Virus record (IMG/VR): IMGVR_UViG_3300035458_000048
Coordinates: 1 to 27,446 of that record
DNA length: 27,446 bases
Reading direction: 5' to 3' (one strand)
Source of the DNA: a virus
Under the pieces are notes generated by a model. It was not told where the DNA came from. It was given only the letters and a program-made list of their open reading frames with translations, and searched no databases. Made by a program: the position numbers and the translations under genes. Below are positions 588 to 27,398 of the stretch, piece after piece (position 1 is the first letter of the stretch; every line of letters starts with the position of its first letter).

Positions 588-2786
588 TCAAAATAATTTG
601 ATAGATGCTGAATTACTCTTAAATATTTTGTTTATATCATTATTATTTGATTTTTGATTTAGCTTTATAAGTGGATTATTGGCAAAGAATGGATGTAATA
701 ACTTCTTTTCAGATGTATCAAGATTAGGTTTATGATCCCATCTATCTTCATGTAGTATTAATAGATAGATTAATGCCAATACCCTATCAAAATTACCTTT
801 AGAATTATAATAAATTAATTCATCTAATAGAGCTATTGATTTGATTTTGTGCAAGTTAAGTATACCAGTGCCAGGTTCTGCTTCTCTCATCAACCATTCA
901 AGAATTAATTCCAATCCGTATTTTATTATAGGAGTTGTACCTGGTGTTCCTTTGCCTCTTGATAGCACTCTTTTATCTTCTATCTTATCTTTAATAATAT
1001 CTGGTGTATCACAAAGAAGATATTCAGCATGCATCTTCTTCATAAAACTGTGTAGTCCTTTAAGGTTATTTTCAAAGTTCTGCATTGCATTATAATGAAG
1101 TAACAGATACCAGTTAGTATTATAGAACATTGATGCTGTTGCAGGACGACCAGTATACTCAGCTACTATACGTTCCGTCATCCTATTCATTATGAATGTA
1201 GATCCTAATGATTCTGTTGTTGCCTGATCATGATCATAATTATCATTTCCAGATTCATATAATCCTAAAGGTATTATCCCATCCTTATTTTTAAATGGAG
1301 GTTCGTAGATTACTACACAACCATTAATATTAACAAGATCAGTATGAGGATAATGATCAATAGGTATTGCATTGTCATCTCTCTTCCATTCAATAAGATT
1401 AGTCTCAGGATTAGGAGTAAGAGTACCTATCCATGATCCTGCCAGTATACTATCCTGATGTGATAATAAATATGCTTTCTGTTGCTTTAAAAGATCTGTT
1501 GGGAATATATTACTACCTATCTGCATGAGTGCCTCAGAGGGCTTAATAGGAGCCTCTGCACAGTATCTAAGATGCATCTCTCTATTCTTGGTATCCTGTA
1601 GATGTCTCTCACGATCTTTCATTATATATTCAAGAGCAATCTCTTTATGTGAGTTACCATCTTTATCTGTAGCTATCTCATGGTTATCTTGTTCACCAAT
1701 AAATAATGCTGTCTTATCATATCCCATCTCAGGTTCAAAAGTATTCTTTATCATATGTACTCTGTATCCTGATCCTCTCGTATATAGTTGTTCCAATCCT
1801 AATAGATCATCTATAGCTGATCCACCGGTACCTAATGCAAACATAAGTCCAAATGTTAACCTACCCTGAGACATTGACTTAAGTGATATATTCCATGATT
1901 GTAAAAGATATGGAAACGTGCCAGCTTCTTCCCATATGATTAATTTACCCCTCTTACCTCTACCCTTATCAACATTAGCTTTAAATGATAATCCCATTAT
2001 CTCACTACCAAATCCTAACTCAGACATTATACCATTATGCATCTTCATGTATGAAGCTCTCTTATGCATCATAGTATCAACTTTGCTCTTTCTCTTACCC
2101 CATGGTGTATTGACTTCAATATGTCCCATACCATCCCATGCTTTGGTAAGAATACCATCAGAAGTAAGATACTCTTTCTCTGAAGCAAAGGCATATGACT
2201 TAGATCTTGGAATAAGATAGAAGTTACGATCAAGCATTGATGCACATTCAAATGATAATCCTCTACCTCTTGTCTTAAGTAATGCTCCATGTTCTCCGGA
2301 TTGTTCACATTCTTCAAGATACCAGAAGGTATCATAACTACTTGCCCAGTAATCAGGAAAGTCAGTCTGTCTTTCTGCCTGTATATTTAAGTAATCATCT
2401 TCAGTAGGTATAAGAAGGTTAAATGAATCTTCATCTTTTTTATGTTTTTCATTTATACTATACTGAAGTGATGATTCTGGAAGGATAAACTTATTCTTTT
2501 CTTCACTATCAAGCTTAACAGCTTTCTCAATAGGAAAATAATTAAGATACCAATAGTAGTATCCTGGTATTTCATCACGTCCTATATTATAACCATAAAG
2601 GCACCTTCGTGCCTCTTCAACCCAAAACTTATACCATTGACTATTAGGAGATAGATTTATTGGATGTCGTGTATATGATCCAAACTCCTTAAAGTGTTGT
2701 GCAGATACTGTAAACTCTGCAGTATTATAATGTGGTTCTGTCTTGTAAAGACCTAACTTCTTTTCCTGTAGTTCGAATATCTTCAT
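588..2786 (-). CDS. terL: Terminase large subunit
   Basis: This 732-residue protein is the packaging motor ATPase and nuclease. The N-terminal region has the GRDEIPGYYYWYLNYFPIE segment (about 69-87) that I associate with crAss-like TerL. The ATPase domain shows a degenerate Walker A-like loop, KTRGRGLSFE (171-180), instead of a classic GxxxxGKS. A hydrophobic strand ending in acidic residues, GKLIIWEEAG (280-289), fits Walker B plus the catalytic Glu, and FALGTGGS (316-323) fits the coupling motif. The C-terminal half carries the nuclease-like segment around GLYESGNDNYDHDQ, with acidic metal-ligand candidates, within the length expected for crAss-like TerL. It uses TGA as its stop codon, which argues that TGA is a normal stop here. 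The following gene is the portal. No frame disruption is visible. Confidence 0.93.
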   Translation of the reverse strand: MKIFELQEKKLGLYKTEPHYNTAEFTVSAQHFKEFGSYTRHPINLSPNSQWYKFWVEEARRCLYGYNIGRDEIPGYYYWYLNYFPIEKAVKLDSEEKNKFILPESSLQYSINEKHKKDEDSFNLLIPTEDDYLNIQAERQTDFPDYWASSYDTFWYLEECEQSGEHGALLKTRGRGLSFECASMLDRNFYLIPRSKSYAFASEKEYLTSDGILTKAWDGMGHIEVNTPWGKRKSKVDTMMHKRASYMKMHNGIMSELGFGSEIMGLSFKANVDKGRGKRGKLIIWEEAGTFPYLLQSWNISLKSMSQGRLTFGLMFALGTGGSAIDDLLGLEQLYTRGSGYRVHMIKNTFEPEMGYDKTALFIGEQDNHEIATDKDGNSHKEIALEYIMKDRERHLQDTKNREMHLRYCAEAPIKPSEALMQIGSNIFPTDLLKQQKAYLLSHQDSILAGSWIGTLTPNPETNLIEWKRDDNAIPIDHYPHTDLVNINGCVVIYEPPFKNKDGIIPLGLYESGNDNYDHDQATTESLGSTFIMNRMTERIVAEYTGRPATASMFYNTNWYLLLHYNAMQNFENNLKGLHSFMKKMHAEYLLCDTPDIIKDKIEDKRVLSRGKGTPGTTPIIKYGLELILEWLMREAEPGTGILNLHKIKSIALLDELIYYNSKGNFDRVLALIYLLILHEDRWDHKPNLDTSEKKLLHPFFANNPLIKLNQKSNNNDINKIFKSNSASIKLF

Positions 2787-9072: not shown

Positions 9073-9489
9073 ATGGCAAAAGATTTGAACAATTTGACTG
9101 AAGTCGAAAGGTTAGAAGTTACCAAAGAGATTGAAACTAAAGGTTTCAAACGGGCACAAGGTATCACACAGGTTGAAGCAGGACAATTAACAGCAACCGT
9201 TTGCACAAAGGTTGTAGGCAAAGTTATTAAAGCTTTATTCTCAGTTATGACCTTTAAAAGGAAAGATGCTGAAGGTAAGGAACTGCCCTTGTATTGGGAT
9301 GCTGCGAAGTTTGATGGTGTTCACAAAGAGTCAGGCAAAACGTATAACGACATCAAGGTTAACTTAGATGATAAGTTAAGAGATGAGTTAAGCAAACCTG
9401 AAAACCTGAAACGCAAATGTACATTACTTAGCACTCCATCAACATCAAACCCAAACAAAACGTTTGTAACGTTCGTTATGTGGAACTAA
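9073..9489 (+). CDS. 138-residue protein in its own transcription unit
   Basis: The ATG at 9073 (MAKDLNNLTEVERLEV) is chosen over upstream non-ATG possibilities because the upstream reading (Cys/Pro/Ser-rich) does not look like protein and the AT-rich leader ends just before it. The protein is predicted soluble and basic. It has a helical N-terminus, a helix rich in small residues (GQLTATVCTKVVGKVIKALF) and a C-terminal beta-like end (KTFVTFVMWN). Its codons are noticeably less AT-biased than those of the rightward small genes. It sits alone between the divergent junction and a strong terminator, a layout seen for highly expressed single genes. No family is recognised; a DNA-binding or host-takeover role is possible but unsupported. 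Confidence 0.7.
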   Translation: MAKDLNNLTEVERLEVTKEIETKGFKRAQGITQVEAGQLTATVCTKVVGKVIKALFSVMTFKRKDAEGKELPLYWDAAKFDGVHKESGKTYNDIKVNLDDKLRDELSKPENLKRKCTLLSTPSTSNPNKTFVTFVMWN

Positions 9490-9502
9490 AAGCCGGAGTC
9501 AG

Positions 9503-9525
9503 AGGGGACGCAAGTCCCCTTTTTT
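9503..9525 (+). terminator. Strong rho-independent terminator
   Basis: AGGGGAC, loop GCAA and GTCCCCT form a perfect 7-bp GC-rich stem followed by a T run. It begins 14 bases after the stop of the 138-residue gene. Confidence 0.93.
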
Positions 9526-9860
9526 CCTTGACTTGAGCATCATCAGCAAGTTTGTTCGAGTGAGTGAATAGGTATTAGACATGATATTAGAAAGGTTATA
9601 ACGCCTTATATAGAGTAATATAGATCAATAGACTTAGATGCATGGCTGAATTATTCTGTTTTATCAGGGTTTAATTTAATTAGGAAGTTATTATTGATTG
9701 ATTGAATTGGCTTAATTTTGATAGGAAATAACAGTTTTATTGATGATTATTATATTGGTATATTGATTATCAGTAAGATGATTATATATTTGATTGTTTA
9801 TTTTAAATAGCATGAAGTTTCATGTTATAGTTATAAGAAAACTATTTATAATTATATAAA
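9526..9860 (+). promoter_or_regulatory. Gene-free region with a rightward promoter candidate and a palindrome
   Basis: No open frame of useful length is seen on either strand. A Bacteroidota-type promoter candidate is ATTG (9762-9765), 19 bases and TATATTTG (9785-9792), the latter a perfect TANNTTTG. Downstream, CATGAA-GT-TTCATG (9811-9824) is a perfect 6-bp inverted repeat near the expected transcript start. TTAGACAT recurs at 9575-9582. The promoter would serve the lipoprotein gene at 9861 and the small genes after it. Confidence 0.5.
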
Positions 9861-10604
9861 ATGAATAAGTATATTGTTTTATTAGTAGTGATATTATATG
9901 GTTGTTCAAAAGAAGTCATTAAACCAACTATTAAGAATGATATAAAAGTATCTGTTGATTACTTCCTTCCTGTTCATTCAGGAGATATGATATCAAAGAG
10001 TAATTCAAGCAGTTATCTTAACTTCTATAACAAATATATAGTAACTAAGATACTTACACCTAAGACTTATAATCTTAATTTTATTAATCTGGAGACTGAT
10101 TATAAATGGGGTGTTTCAGGATTATGGGAAGCACATGATCTTATATCTGTACCACCAGGTAAATATAGAATATATGGTGATTCAAGAGCTGAAGAAGATT
10201 GTAGTGACCATTGTTCATTTGTATTTGATGATACAGTAATCATTTCATCTGTGACTACTACATTGGCTCTAAAAGCTATATATGCATGCTCATTGCTTCT
10301 ATTAGATACAACTAATATAGGATATACTAAGTTCTCTACTACTCATCCTAATCCATTAGTGATAACCAAATCAATGATGAAAACTGATGATGTATATCAT
10401 TCATTCATTAGTGATCAGGTTAATGGACCTGTTTATTCTAATCTTAGTATTGATCTTTGGATTGCTAATAGACCATTGGATGGTGAAGACTTTGGTACTG
10501 GTATGTCAATATCAATAACCAGTTATAAATGGCAGACAGGTAAATACTACTTCATTGAGAATACTGGTAATAACTATATCATACCACTAATGACAGGTAA
10601 TTAA
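9861..10604 (+). CDS. Phage-encoded lipoprotein
   Basis: This 247-residue protein has a lipoprotein signal: MNK, a short hydrophobic segment (YIVLLVVIL), and the lipobox LYGC with Cys15 as the lipidation site. The mature part is mostly beta-like and contains a Cys-containing segment (EEDCSDHCSFVFDDTVIISS), aromatic strands (LETDYKWGVSGLWEAHD) and TSYKWQTGKYYFIENTGNNY near the end. No known domain is recognised, though the layout resembles Bacteroidota surface lipoproteins with immunoglobulin-like or fimbrillin-like folds. It is the first gene of the rightward block, behind the promoter candidate. Phage lipoproteins made early often change the cell surface and block superinfection; that role is a suggestion from position and localisation only. 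Confidence 0.7.
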   Translation: MNKYIVLLVVILYGCSKEVIKPTIKNDIKVSVDYFLPVHSGDMISKSNSSSYLNFYNKYIVTKILTPKTYNLNFINLETDYKWGVSGLWEAHDLISVPPGKYRIYGDSRAEEDCSDHCSFVFDDTVIISSVTTTLALKAIYACSLLLLDTTNIGYTKFSTTHPNPLVITKSMMKTDDVYHSFISDQVNGPVYSNLSIDLWIANRPLDGEDFGTGMSISITSYKWQTGKYYFIENTGNNYIIPLMTGN

Positions 10605-16785: not shown

Positions 16786-17295
16786 ATGCCGAAGTATTGT
16801 ACAAACCACAGCAATAGGAGAGTATTCTCACATGGATTATGTATATCATGTTATAAAAGAGATATACTATATCCTAAGTATAAACTTAAAGAAAAGAAGA
16901 CATATGCAATAAAATCTTATTCATTAAAAAGAGAAAGACTTAATCTTGTTTATACAATTAAGAAAAAAGATAAATGGGCACAATTAGTAGCTGAAGGTAA
17001 AAATGTCTGTTACTTTACCAATGTTAAATTAGATCCGGAGATACTTCCAGACTTTCATCATAGCATCGGAAAAGATGGAGATCTATTAACAGATATGGAT
17101 TATGCCTTTCCTGCCACTTTTAAAGCCCATAGACAATACCATGATCTTAAGTATGGTTTTGATGATCTGGAGAAAGTAAGCTGGTATAAAGACTTCCTAT
17201 TGCGTCTACAGAAGAATAATCCTTTATTGTACGAAAAGGAGATGTATAGAATTCGTAAAGCAAATACAAAAGTAAATAGATGGCAAAGTATGTAA
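16786..17295 (+). CDS. HNH-like nuclease or recombination endonuclease
   Basis: This 169-residue protein has an N-terminal Cys/His group (YCTNHSNRRVFSHGLCISCY) that fits a zinc finger. The central part, WAQLVAEGKNVCYFTNVKLD, leads to DFHHSIGKDGDLLTDMDYAF and KAHRQYHDLKYGFDD, the H-H…G-x-D-G-x-L-L…H-x-x-x-H arrangement of HNH-type nucleases used by Bacteroidota phages in the slot of NinG-like enzymes. The C-terminus is a helical tail. It is placed directly before dnaB, overlapping it by 16 bases, so it belongs to the replication unit. Resolution of branched replication or recombination intermediates is a plausible job, inferred from context. Confidence 0.6.
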   Translation: MPKYCTNHSNRRVFSHGLCISCYKRDILYPKYKLKEKKTYAIKSYSLKRERLNLVYTIKKKDKWAQLVAEGKNVCYFTNVKLDPEILPDFHHSIGKDGDLLTDMDYAFPATFKAHRQYHDLKYGFDDLEKVSWYKDFLLRLQKNNPLLYEKEMYRIRKANTKVNRWQSM

Positions 17296-19082
17296 AGAAG
17301 ACAAATGAAAGAATAGTAATATCAGGATCAATGGGTAAAGTGCCTCCCCAGGCATCAGATATCGAAGAAGCAGTTTTAGGTACGATCCTTCAGGATTATC
17401 ATTACATAGCTAAATTTCCTTACTTTAAGCCCTGCGTATTCTATAAAGAAACAAATCAGATAATATATCAGGCAATGGTTGAAATGTATGATAAAGACAT
17501 TAAACCAGATCTTGTTACATTAACTGATTATCTAAGGACTAATCATAATCTTGAAACAGTAGGAGGTCCATTATATCTTACCAAGTTATGTGATAAATCT
17601 CTTCCATATATCGATACCCATGTAAAGATACTTATGGATAAATATTTCTATAGGGAATTGATTCGATTCTCATATATGACAGAGAATGATGCATTCGAAG
17701 GAATAAAAGATCCTGTAGATATAATGGATGAATTACAGAATCAGTTAATGGAGATGACTGAATTCGATGGTGACGTACAAAATAACTTTCATAAATCATT
17801 AGAGAAAACATTAATAGATATTGATAAAGCATCAGAAGGAGAAGGTATAACAACATTACATTGTGGATTCCCACTATTAGATAAAAGATTTACATTTAGA
17901 ATACCATATGTATGTATAATAGCTGGACCGGAAGGATCAGGGAAAAGCAAGTTCACAGTAGCATTAATAAGAGGTATGCTGGATAATGAACCGGAATTGG
18001 CAGTACAATGGTTTTCATTTGAAGATGGAAGAGAGATGATAATAAGATCATTCTTATCTATGGATGTAAAGAAAACAACCAAGGAACTTCAGTCTATTAA
18101 CTATAAGATGACTGATAGTGATAAGAAAGAAGTAAGAGAACATGCTAAGAAATATAAAAACTATAATATCGAATTCTATGATAAAGCAACATCTATAAGC
18201 AATATAGTATCAAGAGCAAAACGATTCAGTGATAAGAATAAAGAAAAGAAAAGGATAGTAATCATTGATAACCTGGGATTAATCGATTGTGATAAGACTG
18301 GTATTGACAGGGATGATTTCATTGCTGCCAAGATAAAAAGTATCGCAGACATGAATAATACATCAATAATACTCATTCATCATTTTACAAAAGAAATATC
18401 CCGTAAAGCAAATATTGAAGATGGTTATCGACCAAGAAAAGAATATCTTAAAGGATCAACAAGGATCCTTGATTATGTCCAACAGGCATTATTTGTCAAT
18501 CTTATACGTAAGTATCCGGACCTGTTAGCTGAAGAGAAACATCCTTCATTAGATTTCTTAGGTACTGCAGAAATAGAATTCACTGAAGTAAACTTTGATA
18601 AGTATCTATGGAGTATAAATAGCCAAAGAGATAAGGAAACGGAATCAGTTACTGATCTTAAAAGTGAGACATTTGCAAAACTTGCTACATTAGTATTAGG
18701 CAAGTATAAGTTTGCCAATGGAGATATCATTAAGTTCTCTGATATAATACAGAAATATTCAGAATACTCAGGATATGTAGATACACGTAATAAAGGAAGA
18801 GAAGACAAGTATAAGTCTAAGAAAGCATCTATCTATACATTTATTGTAAGGAAGATGTATAATGAAAGCTATATAAGTAGTGATTTATCACCAAGAAGCA
18901 GATATCTATATGGAAAAAATAAGAACCTAAGATATCATTTAGATGATCTATTTATAGTAGAGAGTGTCAAGAATCGTGACGATGATAATCTTAATGATAA
19001 TGCAATATTCAGATTTATAGTTGATCTCGGTTATAACCTATTTAATGAAATAAATGATGATGGAAAATTTGAAGAAAAATAA
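17280..19082 (+). CDS. dnaB: Replicative DNA helicase, DnaB family
   Basis: This 600-residue protein has the DnaB N-terminal domain at about 22-110 (PPQASDIEEAVLGTILQDYH, then LRTNHNLETVGGPLYLTKL). The RecA-like domain contains Walker A GPEGSGKS (216-223), the acidic WFSFEDG strand (244-250), and Walker B RIVIIDNLGLID (325-336). IILIHHFTKE follows (363-372, the DnaB H3-like strand), then KGSTRILDYVQQALFV (391-406). A C-terminal extension of over 100 residues (from about 480) includes a probable winged-helix segment (KYKSKKASIYTFIVRKMYNE) not found in bacterial DnaB. It unwinds the fork as a hexamer. It is in an operon with the HNH-like nuclease upstream and the ATPase downstream. No separate primase lies in the window. 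Confidence 0.92.
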   Translation: MAKYVKKTNERIVISGSMGKVPPQASDIEEAVLGTILQDYHYIAKFPYFKPCVFYKETNQIIYQAMVEMYDKDIKPDLVTLTDYLRTNHNLETVGGPLYLTKLCDKSLPYIDTHVKILMDKYFYRELIRFSYMTENDAFEGIKDPVDIMDELQNQLMEMTEFDGDVQNNFHKSLEKTLIDIDKASEGEGITTLHCGFPLLDKRFTFRIPYVCIIAGPEGSGKSKFTVALIRGMLDNEPELAVQWFSFEDGREMIIRSFLSMDVKKTTKELQSINYKMTDSDKKEVREHAKKYKNYNIEFYDKATSISNIVSRAKRFSDKNKEKKRIVIIDNLGLIDCDKTGIDRDDFIAAKIKSIADMNNTSIILIHHFTKEISRKANIEDGYRPRKEYLKGSTRILDYVQQALFVNLIRKYPDLLAEEKHPSLDFLGTAEIEFTEVNFDKYLWSINSQRDKETESVTDLKSETFAKLATLVLGKYKFANGDIIKFSDIIQKYSEYSGYVDTRNKGREDKYKSKKASIYTFIVRKMYNESYISSDLSPRSRYLYGKNKNLRYHLDDLFIVESVKNRDDDNLNDNAIFRFIVDLGYNLFNEINDDGKFEEK

Positions 19083-25343: not shown

Positions 25344-25365
25344 TTATAAGATATTTTATATATTT

Positions 25366-25441
25366 GAAATTGGATAGTCGGAAGTAATTACCCGATGAAA
25401 AGGGGAAACCAGAACTCCCCTTCCAATTTCTTCTGTTCTGG
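25366..25441 (+). ncRNA. Structured RNA candidate C: three-way junction with pseudoknot
   Basis: Between two genes, GAAATTGGA (25366-25374) pairs with TCCAATTTC (25422-25430), a perfect 9-bp closing helix. It encloses TCGG/CCGA (25378-25381 with 25392-25395) and GGGGA/TCCCC (25402-25406 with 25416-25420). The loop of the last hairpin contains CCAGAAC (25409-25415), the exact complement of GTTCTGG (25435-25441) outside the closing helix, giving a 7-bp H-type pseudoknot. The gene downstream at 25465 is an HNH-AP2 homing endonuclease. A cis-regulatory element, a ribozyme or a small RNA are possible; it does not match any class I know. Confidence 0.6.
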
Positions 25442-25464
25442 AATATATAAATAAACTGGAAATA

Positions 25465-25944
25465 ATGAAAGAAATTAAACTTACTCAAGGTGAAAAAGTA
25501 TTAGTCGATGATGAAGATTATGAATATCTAAATCAATGGAAATGGATTATTCGTAGAACTAAAAAATACAATTATGCTGGCAGACAATTAAAAATAGATA
25601 ATAAATATAAATTACTTTTAATGCATAGAATAATTATGAATGCACCAAAAGGAATGGAAATTGATCATAAAGATATGAATGGACTTAATTGCCAAAAATA
25701 TAATTTAAGAATTTGTACACATAGTCAAAATCAAATGAATAGAAACTCATTTGGGTTAATTAAATATAAAGGTGTTGCTATTGCAATTGCAAATAATAAA
25801 TATATTTACTATCAATCACATATCGCTAAAGATCATCATACATATTATCTAGGTAATTTTAAAACAGCAGAAGAAGCTGCAAAAGCTTATGATAAAAAAG
25901 CAATAGAATTACATGGAGAATTTGCTAAATTAAATTTTAAATAA
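25465..25944 (+). CDS. HNH homing endonuclease with AP2 DNA-binding domain
   Basis: In this 159-residue protein the N-terminal module IKLTQGEKVLVDDEDYEYLN QWKW is typical of this free-standing family. The HNH core is LLLMHRIIMNAPKGMEIDHK, DMNGLNCQKYNLRICTHSQN and QMNR, with H, D-H, N and H/N ligands present. The C-terminal part, IKYKGVAIAIANNKYIYYQS with YLGNFKTAEEAAKAYDKKAI and ELHGEFAKLNF, is a complete AP2 domain. The gene is extremely AT-rich in codon choice. Such enzymes cut alleles without the insertion and spread by repair. No intron splice sites are evident. It follows the pseudoknotted RNA candidate by 23 bases, and the next gene starts one base after its stop. Confidence 0.9.
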   Translation: MKEIKLTQGEKVLVDDEDYEYLNQWKWIIRRTKKYNYAGRQLKIDNKYKLLLMHRIIMNAPKGMEIDHKDMNGLNCQKYNLRICTHSQNQMNRNSFGLIKYKGVAIAIANNKYIYYQSHIAKDHHTYYLGNFKTAEEAAKAYDKKAIELHGEFAKLNFK

Positions 25945-26227: not shown

Positions 26228-26236
26228 TTATATATT

Positions 26237-26378
26237 ATGAATATACAAGAAATGGAATGGGGTGATTTATTTGCAGATAGATACTTCCTTAATTGATAAA
26301 ACAGTTTTCACTTATAACAATTATATACCAGAAAGCAGAACTAAAGAATTTAACTTAAATACACTATTTGAACTATGA
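26237..26378 (+). pseudogene. Small gene with a probable 1-base insertion
   Basis: From the ATG at 26237 the frame reads MNIQEMEWGDLFADRYFLN and stops. Removing one G from the GGGG run at 26258-26261 continues the frame as VIYLQIDTSLIDKTVFTYNN YIPESRTKEFNLNTLFEL, ending with TGA that overlaps the next ATG as in intact neighbours. The total length of 142 bases is one more than a multiple of three, which agrees with one inserted base. A GTG-started second half is an alternative. Confidence 0.5.
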
Positions 26379-26590: not shown

Positions 26591-26796
26591 TGACTATCAA
26601 TGGTAAGGAGATAAAAACTATTCGTCCAATGACAGATAGTGAGAAAATAGAGTATTTTAATAATTATAATATATCTGATAAACAGGTATTTTGTATAGAA
26701 TTTAGTGATAATTCAATTATTTATCCGAAATTTGACTGCGTTCAGTGTATGGAGAATAGTAAATGTTTATTCACTTTAGCCTATCAAATACCATGA
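26590..26796 (+). CDS. Small Cys-containing protein
   Basis: This 68-residue protein starts MTINGKEIKTIRPMTDSEKI and has beta strands (VFCIEFSDNSIIYPKFDCVQ) and a Cys group (FDCVQCMENSKCLF) that may hold a metal. Its TGA overlaps the next ATG, so the following FISUMP protein is translationally coupled. Confidence 0.55.
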   Translation: MTINGKEIKTIRPMTDSEKIEYFNNYNISDKQVFCIEFSDNSIIYPKFDCVQCMENSKCLFTLAYQIP

Positions 26797-27398
26797 CAAC
26801 CAAAGAATATGTTAACCTTATATCCAATGGATCATTATCCTTAGTAAAAGAAAATGCAACACATGAAGATGAATTTAAGTTAGGTGCGAATGAATATTTC
26901 GCATTTTTATTTTGTACCAGTAATAAGACATATTTCCGTAATTATATCCAGTATAGGGGTAGATTCAATGAAAACAAGAAACTTAAGTTATACGATATTG
27001 AATTAAATACCTTGGCAAATACTGATGAATTCTTCCTGTCAAAGATATATGATGCAGTAAACTATGAAGGACAGATGGGAAGAGTTATAATTGTAGGTGT
27101 TGGAAGTGCAGTAATTGTTCATACCGTTCCTCCTCCTAAACCAGTTATTATTCCTACTCCAATAGTACCTCCTCTTCCTATTACTTATAAAGGATATGGG
27201 GCTTTATATAATTGGTATGCTGCTACTGATATAAGAAACATAACAAATACTGGTTGGCATGTGCCTCTTAATATTGATTGGAGTGAATTATCTACATTTT
27301 TAGGTGGTGATGCTATTTCTGGGGATCATCTTAAAGAATCTGGTACATCTCATTGGAATGTTTATAATGATGGGGATAATTATAGTTGTTTTAACTAA
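26793..27398 (+). CDS. Two-part protein ending in a truncated FISUMP domain
   Basis: The ATG at 26793 overlaps the previous stop and gives 201 residues. The N-terminal part (about 1-110) is a mixed alpha/beta domain without recognised family. A proline-rich linker follows (112-129, TVPPPKPVIIPTPIVPPL). The C-terminal part, YGALYNWYAATDIRNITNTG WHVPLNIDWSELSTFLGG and LKESGTSHWN, matches the Fibrobacter succinogenes major paralogous domain (FISUMP), which is common on surface and adhesion proteins of Bacteroidota. The family continues well past HWN; here translation stops 14 residues later, so the domain is cut short. No signal peptide is present. It could be a phage adhesion module or a remnant. 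Confidence 0.65.
   Translation: MTTKEYVNLISNGSLSLVKENATHEDEFKLGANEYFAFLFCTSNKTYFRNYIQYRGRFNENKKLKLYDIELNTLANTDEFFLSKIYDAVNYEGQMGRVIIVGVGSAVIVHTVPPPKPVIIPTPIVPPLPITYKGYGALYNWYAATDIRNITNTGWHVPLNIDWSELSTFLGGDAISGDHLKESGTSHWNVYNDGDNYSCFN

Follow-up and report, generated by a model that had tools for sequence, protein, structure and literature searches.

The 27,446-nucleotide stretch of viral DNA analyzed here over its entire length (hereafter referred to as the window) encodes a terminase large subunit (PHROG 6681, positions 588-2786, minus strand) and a DnaB-like replicative helicase (Pfam DnaB, positions 17280-19082, plus strand), two products that identify the contig as that of a tailed phage. 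The protein encoded at positions 26763-27398 carries a Fib_succ_major domain (Pfam E = 5.1e-11), suggestive of a host from the Bacteroidota or Fibrobacterota. A three-way junction with a pseudoknot (positions 25366-25441) is placed 24 nt 5' of an HNH-AP2 endonuclease gene; the AP2-like C-terminus of the HNH protein was read from the sequence, and the Pfam AP2 model gave no passing match for this 159-aa protein. The gap between genes at this site (25344-25464, 121 nt) is sizeable, as stated in the first-pass annotation, but it is not the sole one, since positions 26228-26374 are also devoid of listed ORFs of at least 40 aa. The helix closing the junction (P1) is abutted by a putative promoter box of the TAnnTTTG type, which we take to be the -7 promoter consensus of Bacteroidota. 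Considered together with the Fib_succ_major domain on the same contig, this box suggests that the host of the phage is probably of the Bacteroidota kind. The coordinates of these features are provided in Table 1.

Table 1. Features of the RNA element and of the HNH-AP2 gene in the window
Feature	Position	Strand	Remarks
Putative TAnnTTTG-type -7 promoter box, TATATTTG	25359-25366	+	Abuts P1; kept in L121 (TATATTTG) and L389 (TATCTTTG)
P1, 5' strand, GAAATTGGA	25366-25374	+	Pairs with 25422-25430 (9 bp, perfect); compensatory changes relative to L121 and L389
P2, 5' strand, GTCGG	25377-25381	+	Pairs with 25392-25396 (5 bp, one G-U); preceded by the conserved UA junction
P2, 3' strand, CCGAT	25392-25396	+	Double changes: ACTGG/CCAGT in L121, GCCGG/CCGGT in L389
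GAAAA junction between P2 and P3	25397-25401	+	Conserved in RF02996 and nearly all relatives
P3, 5' strand, GGGGA	25402-25406	+	Pairs with 25416-25420 (four G-C, one A-U); outer A-U pair 25401-25421 optional
Loop L3, AACCAGAAC	25407-25415	+	CCAGAAC (25409-25415) pairs with the pseudoknot strand; CCAG also with copy 2
P3, 3' strand, TCCCC	25416-25420	+	
P1, 3' strand, TCCAATTTC	25422-25430	+	
Copy 1 (pseudoknot strand), GTTCTGG	25435-25441	+	7-bp complement of L3, perfect
Copy 2 (second L3 complement), CTGG	25456-25459	+	5 nt before the start codon
HNH-AP2 endonuclease gene (159 aa)	25465-25944	+	Pfam HNH_3, E = 1.3e-7; PHROG 99 HNH endonuclease, E = 2.2e-30

All of the pairings initially claimed for this RNA are present within positions 25366-25441: the closing helix P1, the hairpins P2 and P3, and a 7-bp pseudoknot between the loop of P3 (L3) and a strand located 3' of P1 (copy 1). 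The RNAfold prediction for positions 25350-25460 gave a value of -27 kcal/mol (z = -2.6), with two of 200 shuffled sequences equally stable. These pairings had also been considered improbable by chance, but the assessment depends on the strictness of the shape definition: a strict form (helices of 5, 5 and 9 bp with a 7-bp pseudoknot) was found once in the real window and in none of 80 shuffled windows, whereas a loose form (helices of at least 4, 4 and 8 bp with a pseudoknot of at least 6 bp) was matched 18 times in 60 shuffled windows, both strands included. The decisive support for the fold is comparative, relatives of the element maintaining the pairing through compensatory changes.

No Rfam family matched the window at its gathering score. 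Below this level, the int-alpA model (RF02996) aligned with the element over its full length (model positions 1-71 of 71, with the P1-P2-P3 three-way junction included), with a score of 28.8 bits (E = 0.00098) against a gathering score of 35.8 bits. The initial view, which implied that the RNA belonged to no known family, was therefore mistaken. The HNH-associated HEARO and OMEGA RNAs were detected neither in the whole window at the gathering score nor among the six matches obtained near the locus up to E = 10. The UA and GAAAA junctions of RF02996 are present, CU is replaced by UU, and the closing pair of P1 is A-U rather than C-G, as it is in three relatives described below (L138, L389 and L436). 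As in int-alpA, L3 is complementary to the strand 3' of P1, and this 7-bp match is compensated in L121. As the window lies below the cut-off and relatives in the same position lie on both sides of it, the element was filed as int-alpA-like rather than as a formal member; it is a divergent int-alpA relative, of the Bacteroidota type. The order integrase, element, one gene, alpA observed in Escherichia coli strain UTAK-8 fits the Rfam name. A full-text literature search for int-alpA returned nothing related, and it is possible that the position before genes or the pseudoknot had already been noted by the original int-alpA authors.

Relatives of the HNH protein were taken from viral contigs, and their surroundings were searched with RF02996 and with our own model (hereafter referred to as R1). 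R1 was built from 36 sequences including that of the window, such that the R1 score of the window is not independent, whereas its RF02996 score is. Six further HNH-type loci, on other contigs, had the element directly upstream of the gene, with RF02996 scores of 52.6 (L132), 42.3 (L436), 34.5 (L138), 32.1 (L389), 31.5 (L121) and 30.0 bits (L414). L389 was found via a sequence pattern, not via the HNH-gene scan; L121 is on the same contig as L448 and L384, and L437 is identical to L436 in R1 score and position. The pattern scans required the GAAAA junction; the HNH-gene scans, which were the source of L121, L132, L138, L414 and L436, did not. The window, L121 and L389, the three sequences constituting the window-type lineage, have in common the RNA, the gene and a TAnnTTTG box immediately next to P1, and the gene upstream of the element in L121 differs from that in the window. 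Compensatory changes had been proposed as support for the RNA, and such changes are indeed present in P1 and P2 among these three sequences and in the pseudoknot between the window and L121: the CCAGAAC of L3 in the window corresponds to CCCGAAC in L121, in which the GTTCTGG of copy 1 is GTTCGGG. The CTGG located before the start codon in the window (copy 2) has also changed in L121, to CGGG, matching the changes in L3 and copy 1; both copy 2 and L3 are unchanged in L389. This triple change between the window and L121 pointed to a second partner of L3. BLASTN searches of phages with the RNA and the gene yielded matches confined to the AP2-coding end of HNH genes, and those with the L132 RNA yielded nothing useful. 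The pattern GATGAAAAG...AAACC was found in 111 stretches, with the element in none of the 99 loci to which the model was applied. Eight stretches were obtained with a tighter window-type pattern, and the only real elements among them were L384 (on the contig of L121) and L389.

Two pattern scans, one of viral contigs and one of genomes, together with model R1, provided 219 instances, reduced to 199 by the removal of duplicates and of sequences with an unparsable L3. The pattern scans fixed the GAAAAGCGG/CCGCCTG part, plus CTAG in the genome scan, and the conservation of P3 and of the junctions in these sequences therefore cannot count as evidence; the patterns placed no constraint on the pseudoknot, copy 2, the Shine-Dalgarno (SD) hairpin or the greater part of P1 and P2. 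The titles of the genome contigs included Pseudomonadota, Nitrospirae, Planctomycetota, Chloroflexi, Acidobacteria and others. Strong covariation of P1 and P2 is seen over the 219 instances. In the family, P1 is 93.7% paired, with double changes in seven of its eight pairs. In the 91 distinct genome sequences, 95.7% of pairs are kept, and the number of doubly changed cells is 367, versus 121 after shuffling and 51-107 in slid controls. Upstream of P1, the enrichment of a general sigma-70 promoter across the family was only weak (19% vs 14% in shuffles). The Planctomycetota-type genomes to which L284 and L350 belong or lie close (G041 and G040) contained five to six copies of the element versus the usual one or two, and two copies were separated by just 120 nt in one contig.

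An ORF lies downstream from the element in 191 of the 199 non-redundant members, its start codon mostly being located 28-40 nt past P1. The proteins encoded by these downstream genes are diverse (104 clusters among 177 proteins). HNH nucleases accounted for 10 of 150 according to PHROG, and the other products included endonuclease VII, DUF1376 primosomal proteins, Rha, YhcG nucleases, integrases and Dam. For 111 of the 136 pairs of leaders at least 90% alike, the proteins behind them were unrelated: the leader stays and the gene behind it changes. The gene following the element at L248 (positions 9289-10074) looks, from its sequence, like a GIY-YIG homing endonuclease gene, which suggests that homing endonucleases of types other than HNH are also associated with the element. 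Defence genes were considered and rejected as the shared cargo, PADLOC matches being few and mainly to homing endonucleases and PDC-S02. The upstream ORF on the same strand very often stops 5-15 nt before P1 (141 distinct elements); this distance is within the reach of a terminating ribosome, and coupling to upstream translation is possible. The notion that the element marks the insertion of the endonuclease gene holds in that the promoter box, RNA and gene stay together in differing surroundings, but HNH genes are not the only ones preceded by the element.

For 123 of the 141 distinct loops, L3 had two complements that did not overlap (at least 4 nt, within 45 nt); when the loops were permuted among members, the corresponding number averaged 42 and never exceeded 57 (200 permutations). 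In a further count, 18 members had no copy 2 under the criteria used. The mean match was 5.28 nt for copy 1 (3.29 nt permuted) and 4.80 nt for copy 2, in the SD region (3.45 nt permuted; 3.78 nt, with a maximum of 3.98, when permutation was restricted to loops of the same CC type). Of the 110 cases with both a copy 2 and an SD match, 96 had copy 2 overlapping the best SD match. In 85% of cases, versus 25% of shuffles, copy 2 is located in a loop closed by a stem with a score of 4 or more. The mean predicted duplex energies were -7.33 kcal/mol for L3 with copy 1 and -7.39 kcal/mol for L3 with copy 2. L3 covaries with both copies: for 80 distinct pairs of loops, the change in L3 is compensated in copy 1 and copy 2 alike, the window and L121 providing one such pair. 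In the window, copy 2 is only 4 nt long, its pairing with L3 is 4.4 kcal/mol weaker than that of copy 1 and, taken alone, it could well be a chance match. The SD hairpin of the usual family kind is absent from the window, and a search for a T4-type hairpin over the ribosome-binding site (RBS) of its HNH gene found the start region to be weakly folded (-2.7 kcal/mol, z = -1.5). Weak complementarity also exists between the two copies themselves in the window (UUCUGG/CUGGAA, -2.7 kcal/mol, positions 25436-25461), a possible third pairing, and both copies might have further partners.

On balance, we favor as reasonably probable the interpretation that the window RNA is the 5' leader of the HNH gene and a cis-acting translational switch of the int-alpA-like type. 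The three-way junction would present L3, the pairing of which with copy 1, a decoy, in the pseudoknot would leave the start region free, whereas its pairing with copy 2 at the ribosome-binding region would block initiation. Both pairings use the same L3 bases and would therefore be mutually exclusive, resulting in a two-state switch; as L3 of the window pairs far more strongly with copy 1 than with copy 2, the predicted default is translation on. SD pairing is little used in Bacteroidota, so the mode of blocking is uncertain, and copy 2 pairing would act there by covering the start region. The comparison establishes the fold, the covariation of P1, of P2 and of L3 with each of its two copies, the narrow spacing from start codons and the repeated association with HNH genes; from these, we infer repression by copy 2 pairing, switching between the two states and the existence of a trigger setting the state, for which a protein, a metabolite, ribosomes leaving the upstream gene and the speed of transcription are candidates. 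Across the family, leaders of one type precede cargo genes of phages and satellites that would be interchangeable; the unit that would travel in the window consists of the HNH gene, its leader and, probably, a promoter. This functional interpretation holds more strongly for the family than for the window element. Control of the endonuclease by the RNA, already envisaged in the first-pass annotation, is supported by the presence of the element upstream of six other HNH-type genes and by the covariation of the loop with the ribosome-binding region.

A trans-acting sRNA, with the junction as scaffold and L3 as seed for the RBS of other mRNAs, the neighboring gene being one target among several, would be consistent with the Rfam type of int-alpA ("Gene; sRNA") and with the frequent resemblance of L3 to an anti-Shine-Dalgarno sequence. 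We nevertheless judge this alternative unlikely, because the distance to the start codon is narrow in nearly all instances, across 104 clusters of downstream proteins, copy 2 covaries with L3 in cis and no terminator-like poly-U follows the fold in the window. The narrowness of this distance also makes a phage small RNA, one of the roles first proposed, the less supported reading. These observations suggest that int-alpA-like RNAs, rather than being free-floating sRNAs, act as on/off folds where ribosomes land on the mRNAs of phage cargo genes that can replace one another.

The unrelated proteins behind 111 of the 136 near-identical leader pairs begin right at the start codon, and the cargo includes HNH and GIY-YIG-like nuclease genes, as would be expected if the leader were a landmark for recombination or gene exchange, providing homology for the swapping of cargo, homing endonucleases included, with the fold being secondary. 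However, DNA homology would not preserve an RNA fold by compensation, nor would it tie both copies to L3, and the leaders of different lineages have a common structure but different sequences; we regard this explanation as very improbable. There is also little likelihood, in our view, that the element is a constitutive 5' stabilizer or insulator, in which the pseudoknotted fold would guard the mRNA end or hold the start region open with no switching. The compact pseudoknotted 5' fold, the promoter box abutting P1 in the window lineage and the far better pairing of copy 1 than of copy 2 in the window are all compatible with such a role, but it leaves unexplained the second L3 complement, which is SD-placed and covaries family-wide.

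The translational switch favored here may have a broader form, which we put forward tentatively and with some doubt: int-alpA-type RNAs would be widespread two-state sensors, in which a conserved junction receptor responds to a metabolite, to a protein of the host or phage, or to ribosome traffic by shifting L3 from the decoy to the RBS or back, thereby providing a regulated slot for exchanged, unrelated cargo genes, including those of homing endonucleases. If these readings are correct, a catalogued RNA of unexplained role would become a control device, open to testing, for the cargo genes of phages and satellites, one mechanism would account for the duplicated loop complement, and homing endonucleases outside the T4 group would also be under translational RNA control. 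A receptor-like junction with two equally strong partners would offer a handle on the timing of phage accessory genes.

The window RNA has in common with int-alpA the order of the helices, the UA and GAAAA junctions, the AACC-like start of L3 and the matching 3' strand. It differs from int-alpA in that P1 is closed by A-U instead of C-G, UU replaces CU before the 3' strand of P1, the P2 loop is longer, the SD hairpin is lacking and the score is 7 bits under the cut-off. The int-alpA model of Rfam ends at copy 1, with copy 2 and the start codon lying outside the model. In T4-type phages, RNA folds hiding the RBS control the translation of homing endonucleases, and RBS-sequestering hairpins have been described for I-TevI, I-TevII, I-TevIII, segB and mobE (PMC2988022); RNA control of the HNH gene is thus plausible on independent grounds. 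Like the T4-type hairpins, the window element would be a 5' fold in the mRNA of a phage homing endonuclease that is able to hide the RBS. However, the T4-type structures are single hairpins, relieved by a late promoter inside the fold (PMC2988022). The window element is a conserved three-way junction, with a loop having two alternative partners, and no homology is implied.

No Rfam match to families of the preQ1-II or SAM-II type was obtained in the window at the gathering score. The pseudoknot riboswitches preQ1-II and SAM-II hide the SD sequence; unlike these riboswitches, the int-alpA-like element has, to our knowledge, no known ligand. It nonetheless shares with them a folded leader, a conserved core and a pseudoknot involving the ribosome-binding region, and is distinguished from them by its two competing copies of the partner strand.
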